From Janthinobacterium tructae (GTDB lineage: Bacteria; Pseudomonadota; Gammaproteobacteria; Burkholderiales; Burkholderiaceae_D): a stretch of DNA of 64,000 bases. The position numbers and the translations under genes were made by a program. Where the stretch lies: contig NZ_CP041185.1 of assembly GCF_006517255.1 (NCBI RefSeq), positions 4,216,001-4,280,000 on the forward strand, given 5' to 3'. The notes beneath the pieces were generated by a model. The model saw only the letters and a program-made list of their open reading frames with translations, did not search any database and had not been told where the DNA came from. Position 1 is the stretch's first letter; every line of letters begins with the position of its first letter. Below, piece after piece: positions 28,124 through 61,585 of this stretch.

Positions 28124-28394
28124 TTATCCACCGCTTGCCCACATGCTTATACGCGTCTTGCGCACCGCTTATACGGCACTTTTACACAGGTTTATACACA
28201 AGCAGGCCAGGCGCCGCGAGCGATGGCAGGACGATTTTTCTCCAGCAAACTCCAGACTGGACGAGGCCGTACCCCGGCAAGCGTGTTGCACTTATTCATA
28301 CCCACGAGCGAAGCATTGCCACGCTGACTTTTACACCGCTTTCCCACAGCTTGCCAACAGGCTTTTGCACCACTTATCGACAGGCTTATCCACA
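28124..28394 (+). repeat. Two helically phased arrays of DnaA-box-like 9-mers
   Basis: The 306 bp between the Lrp gene and the regulator stump hold 9-mers related to TTATCCACA, all in the same direction. The first array starts at 28124, 28135, 28147, 28158, 28169, 28180 and 28192. The second starts at 28329, 28340, 28351, 28363, 28374 and 28386. Spacing is always 11 or 12 bp, about one helical turn, so all sites face the same side of the DNA. The last is an exact DnaA box; others are degenerate (TTGCCCACA, TTATACACA, TTTCCCACA, TTGCCAACA, TTATCGACA). Cooperative DnaA binding or titration is inferred. Confidence 0.7.
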
Positions 28395-43100: not shown

Positions 43101-43834
43101 TAGCTTTCATCACCAAACGCGCGCACGTGGGCAATATTTATGTGAACCGCAACATCGTCGGCGCCGTCGTCGGCGTGCAGCCGTTCGGCGGCGAAGGCAA
43201 ATCGGGGACCGGTCCGAAGGCGGGCGGCCCCTTGTACCTGAAACGCCTGCAGCGCAATGCACCGGCCGGTGCGCAGCACCAGCGCCAGGCGCCGCCAGCG
43301 CTCGATGCGCTGACCGTGTGGGCCAAGATGCATGGCCACGACCAGGTGCAGCAACTGGCGCAGGAATACGCGCGCACGACCTTGCTGGGCAGCAGCACCG
43401 TCTTGCCAGGCCCAACCGGTGAACGCAATACCCTGAGCTTTGCGGCACGCGGCACGATTCTGTGCGCGGCGGCCACCTCCGGCACCTTGATGAACCAGCT
43501 GGCGGCAGTCCTGGCCACCGGAAACCAGGCCCTGGTGCTGGCACAATCGCCGGAGTTGATCCCGGGCGACTTGCCGGCGGCGCTGAAGGACCGCATCCAG
43601 GTCGTCAGCAGCCTGGCGTCGGTCCAGCATGATTTCCAGATCGCCATGATCGAGGCTAGCCTCGATGGCCAGCTCAAACCGCTGCTGGCGGCACGGGAAG
43701 GGGCCCTGGTGGGCACCATCGCCACCACGCAGGAGGGTGTCATCCCCCTATGGCGCCTGGTCGCTGAGCGGGCGCTGTGCGTGAATACGACGGCAGCCGG
43801 TGGTAACGCGAGTTTAATGATGCTCAGCGTTTAA
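40181..43834 (+). CDS. putA: Bifunctional proline dehydrogenase / P5C dehydrogenase (PutA)
   Basis: Oxidises proline to glutamate with FAD and NAD. 1217 aa. An N-terminal arm (1-130) has no ribbon-helix-helix, so it does not repress its own gene. The PRODH barrel (about 150-480) shows GRGIRNGPGISVKLSALHARYSRAQ, RLVKGAYWDAEVKRAQ and the C-terminal FAD/substrate segment YLVRRLLENGANSSFV. The aldehyde dehydrogenase domain (about 560-1030) has SPWNFPLAIFTGQ, the Glu loop AETGGQNALIVDSSA and the nucleophile SAGQRCSALRVLF. A C-terminal ALDH-like domain (1040-1217) completes a long type-B PutA. A strong terminator follows. Confidence 0.96.
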   Translation: MHPAGPSAFTPIPFAAFQAEILPEATPQRAAITSAYRRDEVSAVQWLLQQVRPSSTETTAEGQALAHRLVSNVRHKRTRASGVDALMHEFSLSSEEGVALMCLAEALLRIPDSQTADRLIADKISKGDWKKHLGESPSLFVNAATWGLLITGKLVSTSSETGLGSAMTKLIAKGGEPLIRKGVDLAMRMLGNQFVTGQTIEEALKNSRENETRGYRYSYDMLGEAALTQQDAANYYASYETAIHAIGKASNGRGIRNGPGISVKLSALHARYSRAQRARVMEELLPKVKALLLLAKQYNIGFNIDAEETDRLELSLDLMEALAFDTDLAGFDGIGYVVQAYQKRCPFAIDFLVDLAQRSGRKFMVRLVKGAYWDAEVKRAQVDGQEGYPVYTRKVYTDVSYLVCAQKLLAASSLIYPQFATHNAQTLATIYTWAKRDGISDYEFQCLHGMGETLYDQVVGPDNLDKPCRIYAPVGSHETLLAYLVRRLLENGANSSFVNQIVDESVAIDSLIRDPLEQARLQGGLPHPSIPLPLDMFGSERRNSAGLDLSNEDTLRTLATGLAQQQTWQAAPLIDGAVSLNGPTHMLHNPAQHDDVVGKVMEAGPADVETALASASAYAIDWQTTEPSVRAQALQRAADLFEEHHIELMALAVREAGKSLPNAIAEIREAVDFLRYYAAQVEHAPNTLALGPVTCISPWNFPLAIFTGQLAAALAAGNVVLAKPAEQTPLIAHRAVQLLHAAGVPRGALQFLPGSGDIVGAGLCNDVRVKGVIFTGSTEVAQLINRNLAARAVAEGIDIPLIAETGGQNALIVDSSALPEQVVQDVMSSAFDSAGQRCSALRVLFLQAEIADKTIHMLKGAMQELRVGNPDRLATDIGPVIDAEAQSNLLAHINKMKTVAIDHYSLDLPTVKGTFVAPTVLEIKSLAQLTQEVFGPVLHVIRYKRAELPQLVQSINDSGYGLTLGIHTRIDETIAFITKRAHVGNIYVNRNIVGAVVGVQPFGGEGKSGTGPKAGGPLYLKRLQRNAPAGAQHQRQAPPALDALTVWAKMHGHDQVQQLAQEYARTTLLGSSTVLPGPTGERNTLSFAARGTILCAAATSGTLMNQLAAVLATGNQALVLAQSPELIPGDLPAALKDRIQVVSSLASVQHDFQIAMIEASLDGQLKPLLAAREGALVGTIATTQEGVIPLWRLVAERALCVNTTAAGGNASLMMLSV

Positions 43835-43909: not shown

Positions 43910-44686
43910 TCAGCCAGCCAGACGCTGGCATAGCTGTTGGATCACCGTAAACGCATACGGCGAGGCGACGGTTTGCACGAAACGCATGAAGTCGACGGCG
44001 GCCTTTTCGTTGGCGTTGTCGGAAATGGTGCGCATGACCGTAAACGGCACGCCCAGTTCAAAACAGACTTGCGCCACGGCGGCACCTTCCATTTCGACGG
44101 CCAGCAGGTCGGGGATATCCACTTTGAGCTGGTGCAGATGCGCGGCGCTGCTGATGAACTGGTCGCCGCTGGCGATCAGGCCCCGGTGCACTTGCGCGTG
44201 CTGCAAGCCAAATGCCACGATATCGGCCGCCTTGAGCACGCTGGAAACATCGTCACGCAGGAAATCTTCGGCGGCAGCTGCCAGTTGCGTGCTCAGTTCC
44301 AGGTCCGTGGCAAAACGCTGCAAGCCCGTCAGCGGTACTTCGAAGCGGGGAAACAGGGGGCGGGCATCCATATCGTGCTGCAGCAATGCTTCCGCCACCA
44401 CGATATCGCCAACTTTGACGTGTTTATCCCCACTACCGGCCACGCCGGTGAAGACGATGTGGGTAACTCCATACTTTTCCACAAGGATAGAAGCTGTCAT
44501 GGCAGCGGCAACCTTGCCCAGACGCGACAGGACGCACACAGCGTCGATATTCCACAAGGTCCCCAGGGTGTAGTCGCGCATGCCGTGCGAACGCCTCTGG
44601 GGGCCTTGCATGGCTTCTACCAGCCCCTGCTGTTCTTCGTGCAAGGCACTGATGATGCCTAAACGCATTTTTTTGTGTGATTTCAT
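43910..44686 (-). CDS. mtnN: 5'-methylthioadenosine/S-adenosylhomocysteine nucleosidase
   Basis: 258 aa. It cleaves adenine from methylthioadenosine and SAH, recycling SAM by-products. Motifs are GIISALHEEQQGLVEAM at the start, FTGVAGSGDKHVKVGDIVVAEALLQHDMDARP, the purine-binding LLAVEMEGAAVAQVCFELGVPF and MRTISDNANEKAAVDF with the catalytic Asp. ATG 44686 is kept; ATG 44668 is possible. It is transcribed away from the repeat-rich origin-like region and links functionally to the methionine genes at 20-24 kb. Confidence 0.94.
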   Translation of the reverse strand: MKSHKKMRLGIISALHEEQQGLVEAMQGPQRRSHGMRDYTLGTLWNIDAVCVLSRLGKVAAAMTASILVEKYGVTHIVFTGVAGSGDKHVKVGDIVVAEALLQHDMDARPLFPRFEVPLTGLQRFATDLELSTQLAAAAEDFLRDDVSSVLKAADIVAFGLQHAQVHRGLIASGDQFISSAAHLHQLKVDIPDLLAVEMEGAAVAQVCFELGVPFTVMRTISDNANEKAAVDFMRFVQTVASPYAFTVIQQLCQRLAG

Positions 44687-44786
44687 GCTGTTTTTACAGG
44701 TTTTTTGAATTGCCAGACGGTTTACATGGTGAAAACAGCTGTTTTGGCGACTTTTCCACCGTTCGCGTTTGTCTCTGTGTTTTAAA

Positions 44787-45001
44787 TAAAGATGTATACA
44801 TAAAAATAGTAGTGATAGTAAACGGCCATTTTTTTGTGGATAAGTCGGTATACCGTATAAAAATCATCTACTTGGCGCACAAAAAAGTAGGCGCACAAGC
44901 ATTGTATCGAGCGAGGACTTGTTTGGGATAAAAATCGGGCTGTGGACAAAGATCGACTTTTCCCACATCTCATCCTGTGGATATGCAGGCACTTATCCAC
45001 A
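44787..45001 (+). repeat. Origin module copy 1
   Basis: Order: AT-rich TATACATAAAAA, trinucleotide run TAGTAGTGATAGTAA (44807-44821), 13-bp spacer starting ACGGCC, inverted DnaA box TGTGGATAA (44835-44843) followed by GTC, then a near-box TGTGGATAT (44976) and forward DnaA box TTATCCACA (44993-45001), 17 bp apart start to start. Confidence 0.8.
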
Positions 45002-45254
45002 GCAGCAAGCAAAAATCACGGGTTTTCTTGCTGTAGTGACATGTTTGATGTGCATCGTACGCTCAGATCCCTGTTTGGCAATCAAGCTTGAGCGACCACG
45101 GGTGCTGTTCTTGCGCGAACGCTGGCATCGAGGTGATTCCTGCAAGACGGTTTGGCAGTGGGTCGCGCTGTCGCCGTTGGCTTTTTTTGGGGATGCTTTT
45201 TGCATGCTTTTTGAAAATATCCCCGGACTTCCGCTTTTTTTATCGGTTTACAAT

Positions 45255-45465
45255 AGATCTATATATAAAAATAGTAGTAATAGTAAACGCGGATTTTTCT
45301 GTGGATAAGTCGCTTTTTTTCAACAGGATCAATCGTTTACGCGCAAAATAAAGCGTGCATAATCGCTGTATCACGCGAGGAGCAAAATTGTATAAAATGC
45401 GGGCCTGCGTAAAAGTTCGTGTTTACTCACAAATCATCCTGTGGATATCAAGTGACTTATCCACA
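45255..45465 (+). repeat. Origin module copy 2
   Basis: Order: AT-rich CTATATATAAAAA, TAGTAGTAATAGTAA (45272-45286), 13-bp spacer starting ACGCGG, inverted box (45300-45308) followed by GTC, near-box TGTGGATAT (45440) and forward box (45457-45465). Distances equal those of copy 1 within 1 bp. A shared segment AGACGGTTTGGCAGTG-like lies about 130 bp before it and again before copy 3. Confidence 0.8.
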
Positions 45466-45721
45466 ATCGTTGTAAATTTCCCTCTTTTTGACATTGAATG
45501 GCTTGCTGGCACTGTGCCTGGTCAGGTCTGTTGACGTTTCCATTTTGCAAAACGGTTTGGCAGTGCTGTGTGCGTGATGCCGGCCACGCCGGCTTTCGTT
45601 GCTCAGTTGTTGGCGCGATTTTTTTTGTCAGCCGTTTGTCGCTTTTTTTTGAAGACAGGCTGGTGAACCTTTCCGAGTGCGAAGCATAGGCAAAGCGCGC
45701 GTTGTCGGGTTTACCTTAACA

Positions 45722-45933
45722 AGATCGTATACAAGAATAGTAATAGTAGTTAACGGCGGCATCTTCTGTGGATAAGTCCCGATTTATCCTTGTAAACAAT
45801 CGCTTGGCGTGCGGATAAGCGCTGAGTAAGGCTTGTATCTGCCTGGGACGGTTTCTGGACAAAAAAACGCCGCCGAAAAAATTTTTCGTTTACGCACATA
45901 TCGTCCCTGTGGATATCCATACGGTTATCCACA
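45722..45933 (+). repeat. Origin module copy 3
   Basis: Order: GTATACAAGAA, TAGTAATAGTAGTTAA (45738-45753), 13-bp spacer starting CGGCGG, inverted box (45767-45775) followed by GTC, near-box TGTGGATAT (45908) and forward box (45925-45933). The region between its boxes diverges most from the other copies, while the box and trinucleotide elements are kept. Confidence 0.8.
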
Positions 45934-54866: not shown

Positions 54867-56024
54867 TCATAGCGCGGCCGCATAGATGGCGCGGGCATCC
54901 TCGCGTGTGACGACGCGCGGATTGTTGCCCAGCAATCGCGTCTGCAGCATGGCGTCGTCGGCCAGCCGGTCCAGGTCGCTGGCCGCGATGCCCACCTCGC
55001 GCAGGGTGCGCGCGATACCGGTGGCGCGCGCCAGCGCCTGCATGGCGTCGATCAGGGCCACGGCCCGCGCTTCCTCGCTGCCCACGATACCAGGCTGCAA
55101 GACGGCCGCCAGTTGCGCATACAGCGGTGCCGCGTGAGACAGATTAAAACGCAACACGTGCGGCAGCACCAGCGCATTCGACAGGCCGTGTGGCACGTGG
55201 AACAAACCACCGATGGGATAAGCGAGCGCATGCACGGCGGCCACCGGTGCATTGGCAAACGCCTGGCCGGCCAGCATGGCGCCCAGCAGCATGGCCTGGC
55301 GCGCCGGCAAGTTGCCGCCATCGCGGCAGGCGGTGAGCAGGTTGCTGGACAGCAGCGACAGTGCCTGGGTGGCCAGCATGTCGGACAGGGGATTTTTCAG
55401 CAGGCGGCTGGTGTACGCTTCGATCGCATGCACCATGGCGTCGATGCCGGTGGCGGCTGTCACGGCGGGCGGCAAGCCCAGGGTCAGGCTGGCGTCGAGG
55501 ATGGCCAGGTCCGCATACAGTTGCGGCGCGACCACGCCCAGCTTGCTGGTGGCGCCCGTGGTGACGATGGCGATGTGCGTCACTTCCGAACCGGTGCCGG
55601 CCGTGGTCGGCAATTGCACCAGGGGCAGGCGCTGGCCGTGCACATTACCGATGCCATACAGTTGCGCCAGTTCCTGGTGGCCCGGCGCCAGCACGGCGAT
55701 CAGCTTGGCCACGTCCAGCGAGCTGCCGCCACCGAGGCCGATAATCAGTTCCACGTGAAACATCTGCGCCTGGGCCACGCCGGCCAGGACGATGGCTTCG
55801 GGCGGATCGGCTTGCACGTCGGCAAAGACGTGGACCTCGATCCCCGCCGTCTGCAAGCTGTGCAGGGGAGCATCGGCCAGGCCCGTACGCAGAAACCCCG
55901 CGTCGGTGACGAGCAGGGCGCGGCGCACGCTCGGGAAGTGATGGGCGATGTGCGCGCCCAGTTGGGCGGCGGCGCCTGGTTCAACGATCAGATGCGGCAC
56001 GGTACGGAACTGGAAGGCGGACAT
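54867..56024 (-). CDS. Iron-containing alcohol dehydrogenase
   Basis: 385 aa group III alcohol dehydrogenase. The N-terminal Rossmann part shows the NAD(P)-binding GLGGGSSLDVAKLIAVLAPG and the LPTTAGTGSEVTHIAIV segment. The C-terminal helical domain has metal ligands in the Asp of ATGIDAMVHAIEAYTS and the His residues of HALAYPIGGLFHVPHGLSNALVLPHV. Substrate may be a short-chain or lactaldehyde-type alcohol. A parS-like site lies within the gene at 55747. It converges on the 3HB-oligomer hydrolase gene with only 3 bp between stops. Confidence 0.93.
   Translation of the reverse strand: MSAFQFRTVPHLIVEPGAAAQLGAHIAHHFPSVRRALLVTDAGFLRTGLADAPLHSLQTAGIEVHVFADVQADPPEAIVLAGVAQAQMFHVELIIGLGGGSSLDVAKLIAVLAPGHQELAQLYGIGNVHGQRLPLVQLPTTAGTGSEVTHIAIVTTGATSKLGVVAPQLYADLAILDASLTLGLPPAVTAATGIDAMVHAIEAYTSRLLKNPLSDMLATQALSLLSSNLLTACRDGGNLPARQAMLLGAMLAGQAFANAPVAAVHALAYPIGGLFHVPHGLSNALVLPHVLRFNLSHAAPLYAQLAAVLQPGIVGSEEARAVALIDAMQALARATGIARTLREVGIAASDLDRLADDAMLQTRLLGNNPRVVTREDARAIYAAAL
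55747..55762. other. parS-like site 2 (inside alcohol dehydrogenase gene)
   Basis: AGTTCCACGTGAAACA differs from TGTTTCACGTGAAACA at two positions. Confidence 0.55.
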
Positions 56025-56082
56025 GCAGACTCCTGACAGTGAGGACAGAAGCCAAGCTTACTCCGCTTTCCCGCCCTGCGCA

Positions 56083-56098
56083 TGTTTCACGTGGAACC
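56083..56098. other. parS-like site 3 (intergenic)
   Basis: TGTTTCACGTGGAACC differs from the consensus at two positions. It lies in the 85-bp gap between nuoA and the alcohol dehydrogenase gene. Confidence 0.6.
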
Positions 56099-56109
56099 AG
56101 AAGTGGGGC

Positions 56110-56469
56110 TTACTCCCACTCCAGCGCGCCGCGTTTCCATTCATACGCCAGGCCGATGGCCAGTACGCTCAAGAAGCCCATGACGGCCCAGAAGCCGTGC
56201 AAACCCAGTTCGTTGACGTTGGCCGCCCACGGCATCAGGAAGATCACCTCGATATCGAACAGGATGAACAGGATGGCGACCAGGTAGAAGCGGATGTCGA
56301 ATTTCATGCGTGCGTCGCCGAACGCTTCGAAGCCGCATTCGTACGGGGACAGTTTTTGTGGATCGGGTTTGTGCGGACCGAGCACGCGCCCCAGCAGCAT
56401 GGGGACGATGCCGACCAGGATGCCGATCAGAATGAACAGCAGGACGGGAAAATAGTTTTCGAGGAGCAT
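56110..56469 (-). CDS. nuoA: NADH-quinone oxidoreductase subunit A, isolated copy
   Basis: 119 aa, full length for NuoA, with three hydrophobic helices (about 5-28, 62-84, 88-108). The conserved loop [36 protein letters not shown] is intact, including the acidic residue in FDIE, and the protein ends in [12 protein letters not shown] as in betaproteobacterial complex I. No nuoB-N genes follow, so this is either an orphan paralogue or complex I is split. It starts 12 bp after sugE, with AGAGGA before the ATG, and is very likely co-transcribed with it. Confidence 0.9.
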
Positions 56470-56480
56470 GGGAATTCCTC

Positions 56481-56801
56481 TCAGTGGCTGGACGACAGCT
56501 TCATCAGTACGATGCCGCACACGATGAGGACGGCGGCGCACACGCGCATGGTGTTGACTTGCTCGCCCAGAAAGACGATGCCGACGATGAAGGCGCCGAC
56601 GGCGCCGATGCCGGTCCAGATGGTGTAGGCCGTGCCCAGGGGCAGGGTGCGCATGGCAATCGACAGCAAGCCGAAGCTGGCGATCATCATGACGATGGTC
56701 ATGACGGAAGGGGTGAGTCGGTTGAAACCTTCGGAGAGTTTCATCGAGTATGCCCACACGACTTCAAGCATGCCGGCAATCAGTAACAGTATCCAGGCCA
56801 T
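56481..56801 (-). CDS. sugE: SMR-family guanidinium exporter (SugE/Gdx)
   Basis: 106 aa with four hydrophobic helices. The essential Glu is residue 13 in [15 protein letters not shown], and [25 protein letters not shown] is the Gdx/SugE signature around helix 3. Members of this subgroup export guanidinium in exchange for protons rather than quaternary drugs. This identity is supported by the two-hairpin guanidine-II type riboswitch in its leader. AAGGAG precedes the ATG. nuoA follows in the same transcript. Confidence 0.92.
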
Positions 56802-56820
56802 GGCGGCTCCTTATACAGAG

Positions 56821-56864
56821 CGGGCCGTCCCGGTGTGTGCCCATGATGGGGGAGGCCGTCCTCC
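56821..56864 (-). promoter_or_regulatory. Guanidine-II (mini-ykkC) riboswitch
   Basis: On the minus strand two short hairpins share the ACGG loop: GGAGG-ACGG-CCTCC (56864-56851) and CGGG-ACGG-CCCG (56832-56821), 18 nt apart. The second ends 19 nt before the sugE ATG, with the AAGGAG ribosome site in between. Paired stems with ACGR loops are the hallmark of mini-ykkC RNAs, in which guanidine binding joins the two loops and frees the ribosome site. The rest of the 316-bp sugE-mnmG gap holds a parS-like site and the mnmG promoter. Confidence 0.88.
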
Positions 56865-56968
56865 TGGATGCTCGTCACGATGGCCACTGGCGTGACCACG
56901 CTTGCGGACGATGCGGCAATTGTAGCAAACATTCACGAGCACCGCAGCCCCAGCCCAGGCCAGTTACG

Positions 56969-56984
56969 TGTTCCACGTGAAACA
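56969..56984. other. parS site 4 (best match)
   Basis: TGTTCCACGTGAAACA differs from the universal parS TGTTTCACGTGAAACA at one position. It is intergenic, about 150 bp before mnmG and 2.9 kb before parA. Confidence 0.85.
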
Positions 56985-57065
56985 GAAACGGCCGATGGCT
57001 TGCCACTGCTGAGTAAAAATTAAGCAAAAATTGGCCCGAGGAAGGTTGCGCTCGCAAAAAGACTC

Positions 57066-57071
57066 TATAAT
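57066..57071 (+). promoter_or_regulatory. -10 element for mnmG
   Basis: TATAAT, 47 bp before the mnmG ATG. The best -35 at 17 bp spacing is only AGGTTG (57043), so the promoter may rely on an activator or on the -10 element. Confidence 0.5.
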
Positions 57072-57117
57072 CGGAGCTCTCTTCCCGCATTTTTACTTGC
57101 ACTGTTACCTATTTATC

Positions 57118-59055
57118 ATGTTATTTCCTACAGAATTCGACGTCATCGTTGTCGGTGGTGGTCACGCCGGTACCGAGGCGGCCCTCGCTTCCGCCCGCAT
57201 GGGGCAGAAGACGCTATTGCTCACGCATAATATTGAGACACTGGGCCAGATGTCGTGCAACCCCTCCATCGGTGGCATCGGCAAGGGCCACCTGGTCAAG
57301 GAGGTCGATGCCATGGGCGGCGCGATGGCGATTGCCACCGACGAGTCCGGCATCCAGTTCCGCATCCTGAACTCCTCGAAAGGCCCGGCAGTCCGCGCCA
57401 CGCGCGCCCAGGCCGACCGCATTCTCTACAAGGCCGCCATCCGTACGCGCCTGGAAAACCAGCCGAATCTGTGGCTGTTCCAGCAAGCGGTCGATGATCT
57501 GATCGTCGAAGGCGACCGCGTCGTCGGCGCCGTGACGCAGATCGGTTTGAAGTTCCTGTCGCGCGCCGTGGTGCTGACGGCCGGCACTTTCCTCGACGGC
57601 AAGATCCACGTGGGCTTGAATAATTACTCGGCTGGCCGCGCCGGCGACCCGCCCGCCATTTCGCTGTCCGCCCGCTTGAAGGAATTGAAGCTGCCCCAAG
57701 GCCGCTTGAAGACGGGCACGCCGCCGCGCATCGATGGCCGCACGATTGACTTTTCCGTGATGCAAGAGCAGGCGGGCGACCTCGATCCCGTGCCCGTGTT
57801 TTCCGTGATGGGCAACACGTCCATGCACCCGCGCCAGGTGCCGTGCTGGGTCACGCATACGAATAGCCAGACGCACGACATCATCCGCGCTGGCCTCGAC
57901 CGCAGCCCCATGTACACGGGCGTGATCGAGGGCGTGGGCCCCCGCTATTGCCCGTCCATCGAAGACAAGATTCACCGTTTCGCGGGCAAGGAATCGCACC
58001 AGATCTTCCTCGAGCCGGAAGGCTTGACGACGCATGAGTTCTATCCGAACGGCATTTCCACCAGCCTGCCGTTCGACGTGCAGATCGCCCTGGTGCAATC
58101 GATGAAGGGCATGGAAAACGCCCACATCCTGCGCCCCGGTTACGCCATCGAATACGATTACTTCGACCCGCGCGGCTTGAAAGCCTCGCTGGAAACGAAG
58201 GCCGTGGCCGGCCTGTTCTTCGCCGGGCAGATCAACGGCACCACCGGCTACGAGGAAGCGGCCGCGCAAGGCATGCTGGCGGGCCTGAATGCGGCCCTGC
58301 TGACGCAGGACAAGGAAGCCTGGGTACCGGGCCGCTCCGAGGCGTATCTGGGCGTGCTGGTCGACGATCTGATCACCCAGGGCGTGCAGGAACCGTACCG
58401 CATGTTCACCAGTCGCGCCGAGTACCGCTTGAGCCTGCGCGAAGACAATGCCGACATGCGCCTGACGGAAATCGGCCGTACCCTGGGCTGCGTCGGCGAC
58501 GCCCAATGGCAAGCGTTCGAGACCAAGCGCGAAGCGGTGGCGCTGGAACTGCAGCGCCTGCGTTCCACGTGGGTCAATCCGCGCATCCTGGCGGCGGCCG
58601 AATCGGAACGCATCGTCGGCCAAGCCATCGAGCGCGAGTATTCGCTGGCGGACTTGCTGTGCCGCCCGAACGTCGCCTACGACACCCTGATGAGCATGAC
58701 GGGCATGGAAGGCCAGGCCCTGGCCGGTCCCGGCGTGCAGGACCCCGCCGTGCGCGAGCAGGTGGAAATCCAGCTCAAATATGCGGGCTACATCGAGCGC
58801 CAGAGCAAGGAGATCGAGCGCCACGAACACTATGAAAACCTGGCCTTGCCGGCCGGTTTTAATTACCTCGATATCGGCGCGCTGTCGGTCGAAGTGCGGC
58901 AAAAACTCGACAAGCAGCGCCCGGAAACCCTGGGCCAGGCCTCGCGCATTTCGGGCGTAACGCCGGCGGCGATTTCGCTGCTGCTGGTGCATTTGAAAAA
59001 GCGCGGCTTCGGTGCCGCACAGACCACCACTTTAAAGGACGAGGTTGTTGAATGA
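57118..59055 (+). CDS. mnmG: tRNA uridine-5-carboxymethylaminomethyl modification enzyme MnmG (GidA)
   Basis: 645 aa from ATG 57118. With MnmE it builds the cmnm5 group on wobble U34 of several tRNAs, using FAD and methylene-THF. The FAD fold [21 protein letters not shown] is at the N terminus. [22 protein letters not shown] (with the catalytic Cys), [11 protein letters not shown], and [26 protein letters not shown] follow. The C-terminal helical domain binds MnmE and tRNA. It heads the mnmG-rsmG-parA-parB block typical of origin-proximal DNA. Confidence 0.97.
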
Positions 59056-59696
59056 AGCAGTTTGACCGGGCCGCACTGGCCCCCATTTTGAATGAAGGCA
59101 TCGCCGCGCTGGGGCTGGACCTGAGCGCGGATCAGACGGAAAAACTGCTCGATTACCTGGCCTTGCTGGCCAAATGGAACAGCGTGTACAACCTGACGTC
59201 GGTGCGCGACCCCATGCAGATGCTGACCCTGCACGTGCTCGATTCGCTGGCGGCCGTGCCCGCGTTCGCGGATGCCAAAAACGTGCTCGACGTGGGCGCC
59301 GGCGGCGGCTTGCCGGGCATGGTATTGGCCATCGCGCGGCCTGACGTAAAAGTGTCGATGATCGACACGGTGCACAAAAAGACAGCCTTTCTGACGCAGG
59401 TGAAGGCGGAACTGGGCCTGGCCAACGTCACCGTGTACACCAAGCGCGTGGAACAGCTGGAAGTGTCGCAGAAATTCGATGTGATCACCTCGCGCGCCTT
59501 TGCCGACCTGTCCGACTTCGTCAACTGGTCGCACCACGTGCTGGCCGAGGGCGGGCAATTCATCGCCTTGAAAGGGGTGGCACCGCCAGACGAGCGCGAG
59601 CGACTGCCGGCAGACTGGAAAGTGACGCAATTACGCGCAATTCAGGTGCCAGGGCTAAATGCAGAGCGTCATCTGGTCTTTATAGCAAGAATATAA
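59052..59696 (+). CDS. rsmG: 16S rRNA (guanine-527-N7) methyltransferase RsmG (GidB)
   Basis: 214 aa. SAM motif [37 protein letters not shown] is complete, with [20 protein letters not shown] near the start and [16 protein letters not shown] later. Loss of RsmG in other bacteria gives low-level streptomycin resistance. The ATG overlaps the mnmG stop (ATGA), so it is translationally coupled. Confidence 0.96.
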
Positions 59697-59715
59697 AGAC
59701 TGGAAAATTAAACGG

Positions 59716-59805
59716 TATAAATCATATAAACAGTTTATACGGTATAAATGATATAAACCATATAAACGATTTATATCGTATAAATGAAATAAACAGTATA
59801 AATCG
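59716..59805. repeat. Ten tandem 9-bp iterons upstream of parA
   Basis: Exactly ten consecutive 9-bp units of the form TATAAAnnn (TATAAATCA, TATAAACAG, TTTATACGG, TATAAATGA, TATAAACCA, TATAAACGA, TTTATATCG, TATAAATGA, AATAAACAG, TATAAATCG). Two units are inverted (TTTATA), making short palindromes such as TATAAACAGTTTATA. The block fills most of the rsmG-parA gap and ends 59 bp before the parA ATG. An easily melted element, protein-binding array or parA promoter region is possible. Confidence 0.75.
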
Positions 59806-59864
59806 TTTCGGCCGGATGCCGGGGCGCACGATGAAGTTTGCATCTCTTTACAACTAGAAGATAC

Positions 59865-60635
59865 ATGGCCAAAATTTTTTGTGTAGCAAATCAAAAGGGT
59901 GGTGTTGGTAAAACCACAACAAGCGTCAACCTCTCCGCCGGTCTGGCCAAGTTGAACCAGCGCGTGCTGCTGGTCGACCTCGACCCGCAGGGCAATGCGA
60001 CCATGGGTGCCGGCATCAACAAGGCCGGCCTGAAGGCGTCGACCTATGAAGTCATGCTGGGCGAATCCGATGTCAAAACGGCACGCCAGCGTTCGGAAGC
60101 GGGGCGCTTCGATGTCCTGCCGTCGAACCGCGAACTGGCCGGCGCGGAAGTGGAGATGGTCGAACTGGACAACCGCGAACGCCGCCTGAAGGATGCGCTG
60201 GCCGAAGTGGATAGCGAATACGACTTCATCCTGGTTGATTGCCCACCGGCATTATCGATGCTGACCCTGAACGGCCTGTGCGCCGCGCATGGCGTGATCA
60301 TCCCGATGCAGTGCGAGTACTACGCGCTGGAAGGCCTGTCCGACCTGGTCAACACCATCAAGAAGGTACATGCCAACCTGAACCCGGACTTGAAGATCAT
60401 TGGTCTCTTGCGCGTGATGTTCGATCCGCGCATGACATTATCACAACAAGTGTCGGCCCAGCTGGAACAGCATTTCGGCGACAAGGTCTTCAAGACCATC
60501 ATCCCGCGCAATGTGCGCCTGGCCGAAGCGCCATCGTACGGCTTGCCCGGCGTGACCTTCGATCCCAGCTCGAAAGGTGCCCAGGCGTATATCGCCTTCG
60601 GCGCCGAGATGGTCGAGCGCATCAAACATATGTAA
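59865..60635 (+). CDS. parA: Chromosome-partitioning ATPase ParA (Soj)
   Basis: 256 aa from ATG 59865. The deviant Walker A is KGGVGKTTTSVNLSAGLA at about residues 10-27, Walker A' is LVDLDPQGNATMGAG and Walker B is FILVDCPPALSMLTLN. The short N terminus without an HTH makes it a chromosomal (type Ib-like) ParA. It forms ATP-dependent dimers on DNA that pull ParB-parS complexes. It is followed 65 bp later by parB; parS-like sites are 3-8 kb upstream. Confidence 0.95.
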   Translation: MAKIFCVANQKGGVGKTTTSVNLSAGLAKLNQRVLLVDLDPQGNATMGAGINKAGLKASTYEVMLGESDVKTARQRSEAGRFDVLPSNRELAGAEVEMVELDNRERRLKDALAEVDSEYDFILVDCPPALSMLTLNGLCAAHGVIIPMQCEYYALEGLSDLVNTIKKVHANLNPDLKIIGLLRVMFDPRMTLSQQVSAQLEQHFGDKVFKTIIPRNVRLAEAPSYGLPGVTFDPSSKGAQAYIAFGAEMVERIKHM

Positions 60636-60700
60636 ACAAAGGGCGAGCGACTCGCAAGGAATGATGTGAGCGCTCACTCTGAAAACACGATTAGGACAGC

Positions 60701-61585
60701 ATGGCTACGAAAAAATTAAAAGGACTGGGTCGCGGACTCGACGCCCTCCTGGGTGGCGGCGGCGACTTCGCCAGCCCGGACACGCATCAACCCTCCAGCT
60801 TGCCCGTGTCGCAAATGCAAGCCGGCAAATACCAGCCGCGCACGCGCATGGACGAAGGGGCCTTGAACGAACTGGCCGCCTCGATCAAGGCGCAAGGGCT
60901 GATGCAGCCGATCCTGGTGCGCCCGATCGGGCAAGACACCCTGAGCGGACTTGTCAAATATGAAATCATCGCCGGTGAACGCCGTTTCCGCGCCTCGCAA
61001 CTGGCCGGCCTGACGGAAGTGCCGGTGCTGGTGCGCGATGTGGATGACCTGGCCGCCGCCGCCATGGCGCTGATCGAGAACATCCAGCGCGAAGACTTGA
61101 ATCCCCTGGAAGAGGCGCAGGGTATTCACCGCCTGATCGCCGACTTCAGTTTCACGCATGAGCAAGCGGCCACTGCGCTGGGACGCTCGCGCAGCGCGGT
61201 GTCGAACCTGCTGCGTCTGATGAACCTGGCCAGTCCCGTGCAGACCATGCTGATGGCCGGCGATATCGACATGGGCCATGCGCGCGCCTTGCTGGCGGTC
61301 GATGCGGCCAGCCAGATCACGCTGGCCAACCAGGTCGTGGCCAAGCGCCTGTCGGTGCGCGAAACGGAAAAGCTCGTCACCCGCACGCTCGAGGAAGCGG
61401 CCAACCCGGTCGAACCGCGGCAAAAGGAAAAGTCCGGCGACATCGCGCGCCTGGAAGAAGAGTTGTCCGATGCGCTGGCCACGCCCGTGGTGTTCAAAAT
61501 GGGTAACAAAGGCCGTGGCCAATTGGTGATCGATTTTGCCGATCTTGACGTGCTCGATGGTTTGTTGACCCGCTTGCGTGGTTAA
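60701..61585 (+). CDS. parB: Chromosome-partitioning protein ParB (Spo0J)
   Basis: 294 aa. The N terminus KKLKGLGRGLDALLGGG is the ParA-stimulating segment. The CTPase/ParB domain has YQPRTRMDEGALNELAASIKAQGLMQPILVRP and the GERRFRASQLAG motif, then IENIQREDLNPLEEAQGIHRL. The HTH (FTHEQAATALGRSRSAVSNLLRLMNL) reads parS. The C-terminal dimerisation domain ends LDVLDGLLTRLRG. The sites at 52.1-57.0 kb are its likely targets. Confidence 0.95.
   Translation: MATKKLKGLGRGLDALLGGGGDFASPDTHQPSSLPVSQMQAGKYQPRTRMDEGALNELAASIKAQGLMQPILVRPIGQDTLSGLVKYEIIAGERRFRASQLAGLTEVPVLVRDVDDLAAAAMALIENIQREDLNPLEEAQGIHRLIADFSFTHEQAATALGRSRSAVSNLLRLMNLASPVQTMLMAGDIDMGHARALLAVDAASQITLANQVVAKRLSVRETEKLVTRTLEEAANPVEPRQKEKSGDIARLEEELSDALATPVVFKMGNKGRGQLVIDFADLDVLDGLLTRLRG

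Follow-up and report, generated by a model that had tools for sequence, protein, structure and literature searches.

A probable chromosomal replication origin of three tandem modules, distant from dnaA, in Janthinobacterium

The window analyzed here is a 64,000-bp stretch (C1:4,216,001-4,280,000) of a one-contig Janthinobacterium chromosome of 6,314,370 bp (6.31 Mb). It contains a gene-free gap flanked by two genes and, further to the right, a cluster of parS-like sites followed by the mnmG-parAB genes, as follows.

43910-44686, minus strand: mtnN, left flank of the gene-free gap
from 46134: GMC oxidoreductase ORF, right flank of the gene-free gap
55747..56984, no strand assigned: three parS-like sites (starts 55747, 56083, 56969)
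57031..61585, plus strand: mnmG, rsmG, parA and parB (starts 57031, 59052, 59838, 60701)

The products of parA and parB match the ParA and ParB families but score below the cut-off of the best equivalog model, and an Rfam search of the window returned no matches at the gathering score. At no more than two mismatches, the whole genome holds four parS-like sites, namely, the three in the window and a fourth at C1:4,339,732. A first-pass annotation of this DNA had described 1.4 kb of gene-free sequence, had given its distances to parS and parA, and had remarked that dnaA is missing from the window. All of this is correct: the gap runs from the right edge of mtnN (44686) to the oxidoreductase ORF (46134), the parS-like sites and the parA start lie where they were placed, and dnaA is located at C1:3,896,595.

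Within the gap we recognize three modules of about 227 bp, the ends of which were set by us. Each comprises an AT-rich element, a DnaA-trio-like run, an inverted DnaA box, an IHF-like site, and a near-box/box pair. All three face the same direction, and from left to right AT-rich DNA leads into a run of TAG-TAG-type triplets, a spacer of 13 to 17 nt and the inverted box, to the right of which follow the IHF-like core and then TGTGGATAT-N8-TTATCCACA. Two types can be told apart by the bases after the trio, TAAAC in type A and TTAAC or similar in type B, and the order in the window is A-A-B.

44775..45001, plus strand: putative origin module 1 (type A)
44780..44819, no strand assigned: AT-rich element of module 1, ranked third for instability among the 40-bp stretches of the window
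44805..44822, plus strand: DnaA-trio-like run of module 1, TAG TAG TGA TAG TA, interrupted by one rule-breaking triplet
44835..44843, minus strand: R1-like DnaA box of module 1 (inverted TGTGGATAA)
44863..44874, plus strand: IHF-like core of module 1, ATCATCTACTTG, 28 bp from the box start
44976-44984 and 44993-45001, no strand assigned: pair of module 1, near-box TGTGGATAT and R4-like box TTATCCACA
45240..45465, plus strand: putative origin module 2 (type A)
45247..45286, no strand assigned: AT-rich element of module 2, ranked first for instability among the 40-bp stretches of the window
45270..45287, plus strand: DnaA-trio run of module 2, with a spacer of 13 and an unbroken row of seven trios, counting from the box
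45300..45308, minus strand: R1-like DnaA box of module 2 (inverted TGTGGATAA)
45328..45339, plus strand: IHF-like core of module 2, ATCAATCGTTTA, 28 bp from the box start
45440-45448 and 45457-45465, no strand assigned: pair of module 2, near-box TGTGGATAT and R4-like box TTATCCACA
45705..45933, plus strand: putative origin module 3 (type B)
45712..45751, no strand assigned: AT-rich element of module 3, eleventh among the least stable 40-bp stretches
45733..45750, plus strand: DnaA-trio run of module 3, with a spacer of 17 and an unbroken row of six trios
45767..45775, minus strand: R1-like DnaA box of module 3 (inverted TGTGGATAA)
45795..45806, plus strand: weaker IHF-like core of module 3, AACAATCGCTTG, likewise at an offset of 28
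45908-45916 and 45925-45933, no strand assigned: pair of module 3, near-box TGTGGATAT and R4-like box TTATCCACA

The repeat geometry on which the first-pass annotation had built its case for an origin away from dnaA was reproduced in full. The starts of the inverted boxes (44835, 45300, and 45767) are 465 and 467 bp apart, the start-to-start distances from inverted to forward box are 158, 157, and 158 bp, and near-box and box are 17 bp apart in all three units. Likewise, the boxes are the same across units at 27 of 27 positions, whereas the spacers between them are only 33 to 65% identical. The full pattern (box, 126 to 140 nt, near-box, 8 nt, box) matches three times in the window and never in 100 shuffles. 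An intergenic cluster of DnaA boxes, one criterion for an oriC, is thus present in the gap, and the window as a whole is enriched in boxes, with 10 exact copies versus 6 in 120 sampled 20-kb stretches (2.4 Mb) of the same genome. Four of the ten lie outside the modules, at 28386, 31218, 31388, and 35432.

These four, together with several near-matches (window positions 28180-28394, 31218, 31388, and 35432), are found 10 to 17 kb to the left of the modules at a density far above the genome rate. Possibly, they represent DnaA reservoirs or regulated promoters.

A second criterion for an oriC is an unstable, AT-rich unwinding element. In a nearest-neighbor scan of duplex stability over all 40-bp stretches of the window, the least stable is the element of module 2, with those of modules 1 and 3 in third and eleventh place. 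Next to them lie runs resembling the Bacillus subtilis-type basal unwinding system (BUS), in which a DnaA box and a short spacer are followed by a run of 3'-GAT-5' trios (PMC8287927). The BUS rule, a DnaA box with a spacer of at most 16 and at least three central-A trios, describes module 2 (spacer 13, seven trios). The spacer of 17 in module 3 is one base over the published limit, and the run of module 1 is broken after two trios; we count both against an oriC. Defined as an exact box with a spacer of at most 17 and at least four trios, three of them GAT, BUS-like arrangements occur twice in the window and are absent from the 2.4-Mb sample of the same genome.

The other half of each module is reminiscent of E. 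coli oriC. The order of AT-rich element, TGTGGATAA, IHF-like core, and forward TTATCCACA is shared, and in E. coli K-12 the IHF site has its ATCA 28 bp from the start of box R1, exactly as in the modules, where the predicted IHF site keeps a fixed distance from the R1-like box. This identical offset points to an old constraint. Opposed boxes of the high-affinity R1 and R4 kind delimit the box region in both, at 157 to 158 bp here versus 180 bp in E. coli, and the modules, like E. coli oriC, lie on the mnmG side of the chromosome. There are also clear differences. E. coli has one module, whereas Janthinobacterium has three, with a clear trio run; oriC adjoins mnmG in E. coli but is 12.7 kb away from it here; and the dense GATC sites of Dam/SeqA control (11 in E. 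coli oriC) are reduced to one or two per module (1, 2, and 1). In module 3 the IHF-like core reads AACA in place of ATCA, which we also count against an oriC, and none of the three cores in the window conforms to the strict IHF consensus. The genome does carry ihfA. Each module joins the IHF geometry of E. coli to a Bacillus-like DnaA-trio run.

A review reports that the distances from the DUE to R1 and from R1 to the IHF site are subject to strict requirements, and describes a model for E. coli in which bending by IHF allows DnaA bound elsewhere to join in (PMC5742627). In the BUS model, DnaA at the box seeds DnaA on the trio run (PMC8287927; PMC6669920). By analogy with both, DnaA would bind the R1-like box beside the AT-rich element in each module, IHF would bind at the 28-bp site and bend the DNA, and the complex would be joined by DnaA from the near-box/box pair, at a distance of about 141 bp. 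DnaA seeded at the R1-like box could then assemble along the trio run on a single strand, opening the AT-rich DNA for loading of the helicase. DnaA binding, IHF binding, opening, and the involvement of more than one module are predictions from the sequence. With a trio run and an IHF-like site in one module, both main opening models may be testable in a single organism.

The GC-skew minimum, which the first-pass annotation had expected at about 45 kb of the window, is found at approximately C1:4,260,000 (window position 44,000) in a cumulative skew computed from the 120 stretches plus the window, that is, from 39% of the chromosome. Base by base, the minimum within the window is at 43,532 for GC skew and at 44,565 for keto skew. 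The trough is shallow, extending from about 4.17 to 4.39 Mb, and at 39% sampling this counts against an oriC at the modules. The skew maximum is at about 1,018,000 (1.018 Mb), close to a single dif-like site at 1,028,246 (1.028 Mb), which has two mismatches to the E. coli dif core and lies near the antipode of the modules. A skew minimum opposite the terminus, a third criterion for an oriC, therefore coincides with the module region, shallow trough notwithstanding. By comparison, dnaA (3.897 Mb) is 364 kb from the minimum, well outside the trough and up the slope.

E. coli datA, too, is characterized by DnaA boxes and an IHF-like site (PMC5742627), and the modules might accordingly be a datA-like locus that titrates or inactivates DnaA while the true origin lies at dnaA. 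Genome records of the relatives begin at dnaA, and the genome paper of Herbaspirillum seropedicae placed the origin there (PMC3093359). We nevertheless regard this explanation as very improbable: the skew minimum and the position of dif favor the modules, the modules carry AT-rich trio elements that would be superfluous for titration, and the dnaA locus has no trio run and just one exact DnaA box plus one near-match upstream. That same box and near-match could be taken for a secondary origin used beside one at the modules, and two functional origins on one chromosome have been mentioned for Vibrio (PMC10225481). With no trio run at dnaA, and with negative skew that runs on through dnaA without a switch, the use of two origins is equally hard to credit.

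Among relatives, searches of further or same genomes recovered dnaA in 22 of 22 and mnmG in 23 of 23. In 21 of the 23 genomes with data on both genes, all with dif-like sites (G011 and G300, in seven and nine contigs, were left out), the module locus lies 3.4 to 16.0 kb from mnmG and 246 to 790 kb (median, 352 kb) from dnaA; three genomes (G281, G295, and G115) were placed by a trio-box match without the full box-to-box geometry. The modules are more nearly opposite the dif-like site than dnaA in 19 of the 21, with a median deviation from the dif antipode of 0.7% of the circle versus 5.9% for dnaA. Fourteen of the 21 belong to one genus and are not independent; outside that genus, five of seven favor the modules. 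The misfits count against our reading: dnaA is more nearly opposite dif in G056 and G120, and neither locus fits the antipode well in G034 and G281. Elsewhere in the GTDB family, in further genera, shorter distances separate the modules from dnaA, at 5.8, 19, 53, 57, and 61 kb in the five of 13 searched genomes in which both positions were comparable.

Two records deserve mention in their own right. In G281, a distance of 790 kb separates dnaA from the modules and mnmG on C1, and neither position is antipodal to the dif-like site, a pattern suggestive of a large rearrangement. The dnaA gene is split into two frames in G008 and G010, with the G008 frame below the cut-off; this may be a sequencing error.

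The skew minimum at the modules, the maximum near the dif-like site, the placement opposite dif in most relatives, and the parS cluster 10 to 12 kb away lead us to consider the location of the origin at the modules, beside mnmG-parAB, near certain. Unstable AT-rich elements, BUS-like arrangements, a conserved trio (see below), the +28 IHF geometry together with ihfA, and the enrichment of boxes in the window against a dnaA locus poor in them and lacking a trio run argue in the same direction. Hence, the region is very probably the chromosomal oriC of Janthinobacterium, with three tandem modules of the same direction, each equipped with the parts of a complete small origin. The proposal of a candidate origin away from dnaA is supported by skew, dif, parS, and the conserved boxes; the trio run, the IHF-like site at the E. 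coli offset, the two types of module, and their spread through the family are additions to it.

A dnaA-distant origin is not new as such, since one was already predicted for chromosome 1 of Cupriavidus metallidurans CH34, where a 213-nt stretch containing three perfect DnaA boxes lies next to a skew switch, at a distance of about 90 kb from dnaA; the text of that report available to us does not describe a module structure, trio, or IHF geometry (PMC2864759). For Herminiimonas arsenitoxidans the accessible text gives skew switches only (PMC5670224), and a single dnaA-distant origin, from a cyanobacterium, is named in that of DoriC (PMC6323995). The dnaA-numbered records of the relatives in our dif comparison start at the distances given above from the likely origin, an offset that matters for coverage-based estimates of growth rate and for work on strand bias.

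A comparison of the boxes with related genomes had been proposed as a check, and they do recur in the genus and across the GTDB family. With blastn, the 1.6-kb region finds a match in each of the 40 genus genomes, or in 39 of 40 when G038 (an 82% complete genome), in which only the flanking gene matches, is set aside. The geometry TGTGGATAA-N146-152-TTATCCACA is found in 199 of 294 family genomes (26 of 44 genera) and the trio-box pattern in 59 of 294 (8 of 44 genera), with zero hits for the reversed controls in all. The box-to-box geometry is absent from 95 of the 294, including 16 of 26 in genus g18; that some relatives, mainly g18, lack the full geometry counts against an oriC. A strict unit pattern matched at least 120 stretches in named records, and among the matches listed are Janthinobacterium, Massilia, Duganella, Pseudoduganella, Rugamonas, Telluria, and Undibacterium, as well as Oxalobacteraceae, Burkholderiaceae, Burkholderiales, and broader MAGs. 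Across the order, the combination of a box and an IHF-like core at +28 occurs in 9 of 200 genomes, with zero hits for the control; five of the nine belong to other families, and two of these five have a trio-like run.

Anchored, ungapped profiles of 239 distinct units, from 173 of 190 loci, revealed how tightly the geometry is kept. The distance from box start to pair start is 140 to 142 in 234 units and 139 or 143 in five; the selecting pattern allowed 135 to 149, so the narrow spread is a result, although membership of the set is not. The start of ATCA-N5-TTR falls at +28 in 184 of the 239 units and, once the set is thinned, in 57 of 75, compared with 2.4% of shuffled spacers that contain it anywhere. 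The strict IHF consensus is rare (21 of 239 units, all at the +28 place), which we weigh against an oriC. Across the genus, no position of the boxes or near-boxes varies in any of the three modules. The module 1 trio AATAGTAGTGATAGTAAACG is present in 24 of 24 module 1 sequences from 26 genus loci, the module 2 run is kept in 24 of 24, and the module 3 trio AATAGTAATAGTAGTTAACG in 26 of 26; merely 4 of 21 columns of the module 2 trio alignment are invariant because one of the 24 sequences is shifted by one base with the same run. In the 60 bp past modules 1, 2, and 3, invariant columns number 12, 7, and 1 of 60 (oriented genus loci).

The usual description of a bacterial origin has a single unwinding element and a single array of DnaA boxes. 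Several complete tandem copies, widespread in one family, raise the question of how the cell fires once per cycle. By a hand tally covering 195 of the 199 positive genomes, about 129 have two or three geometry units, and Janthinobacterium has three in 23 of 27 genomes and two in the other four. We tentatively propose, at somewhat less than even confidence, that in much of the family the origin consists of two or three complete, anciently diverged A and B modules, each under selection and maybe with different jobs; conceivably, modules may serve separate firing conditions, or one may serve each replication direction. It is also possible, if rather doubtful, that oriC is here with one working module, the other modules being remnants of duplication that act as decoys or DnaA reservoirs. 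Module quality is indeed uneven, as module 2 fits the published trio rule, module 1 is interrupted, and the IHF-like core of module 3 is weaker, and copy number varies between genera, some genomes having a single full-geometry module. Against one working module, trio, box, and pair are kept in all three genus-wide while the DNA past the modules is not, and the modules are old duplicates; both points bear on conservation and age rather than on origin activity.

More than one DnaA-box cluster is also a feature of the bipartite origins of B. subtilis and Helicobacter pylori, in which two clusters are split by a spacer gene and there is one DUE (PMC4285127). In contrast, the Janthinobacterium clusters are not separated by genes, and each is accompanied by an AT-rich and trio element of its own. 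Compared with the BUS, the differences are that three copies are present in one origin and that each is coupled to an IHF-like site. We found no report of a multimodule origin in these genera in the open-access literature. The published BUS search retained a single candidate for nearly all genomes (PMC8287927), and module copies would therefore go unreported by it.

The location, anatomy, and conservation of the modules, as well as their types, were established by computation. The order A-A-B was found in 34 of 70 loci, and 3 of the 70 yielded no module by script. In a FastTree phylogeny of 45 modules from 19 loci (support values unread), the B-type modules of Janthinobacterium, g4, g11, g40, Pseudoduganella, and Massilia form a grouping separate from the A-type modules, which implies an old duplication followed by separate inheritance. 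Janthinobacterium has two A modules, and g4 has two B modules.

A recent duplication was considered and rejected, since modules of the same genome are 39 to 60% identical and the same module is usually more alike across genus genomes; the two type B modules of g4 genomes, at 79% identity, are an exception to that range. In four g40 loci (L191, L193, L194, and L216) the A and B modules lie about 3 to 3.6 kb from each other, versus the usual 0.45 kb or so.
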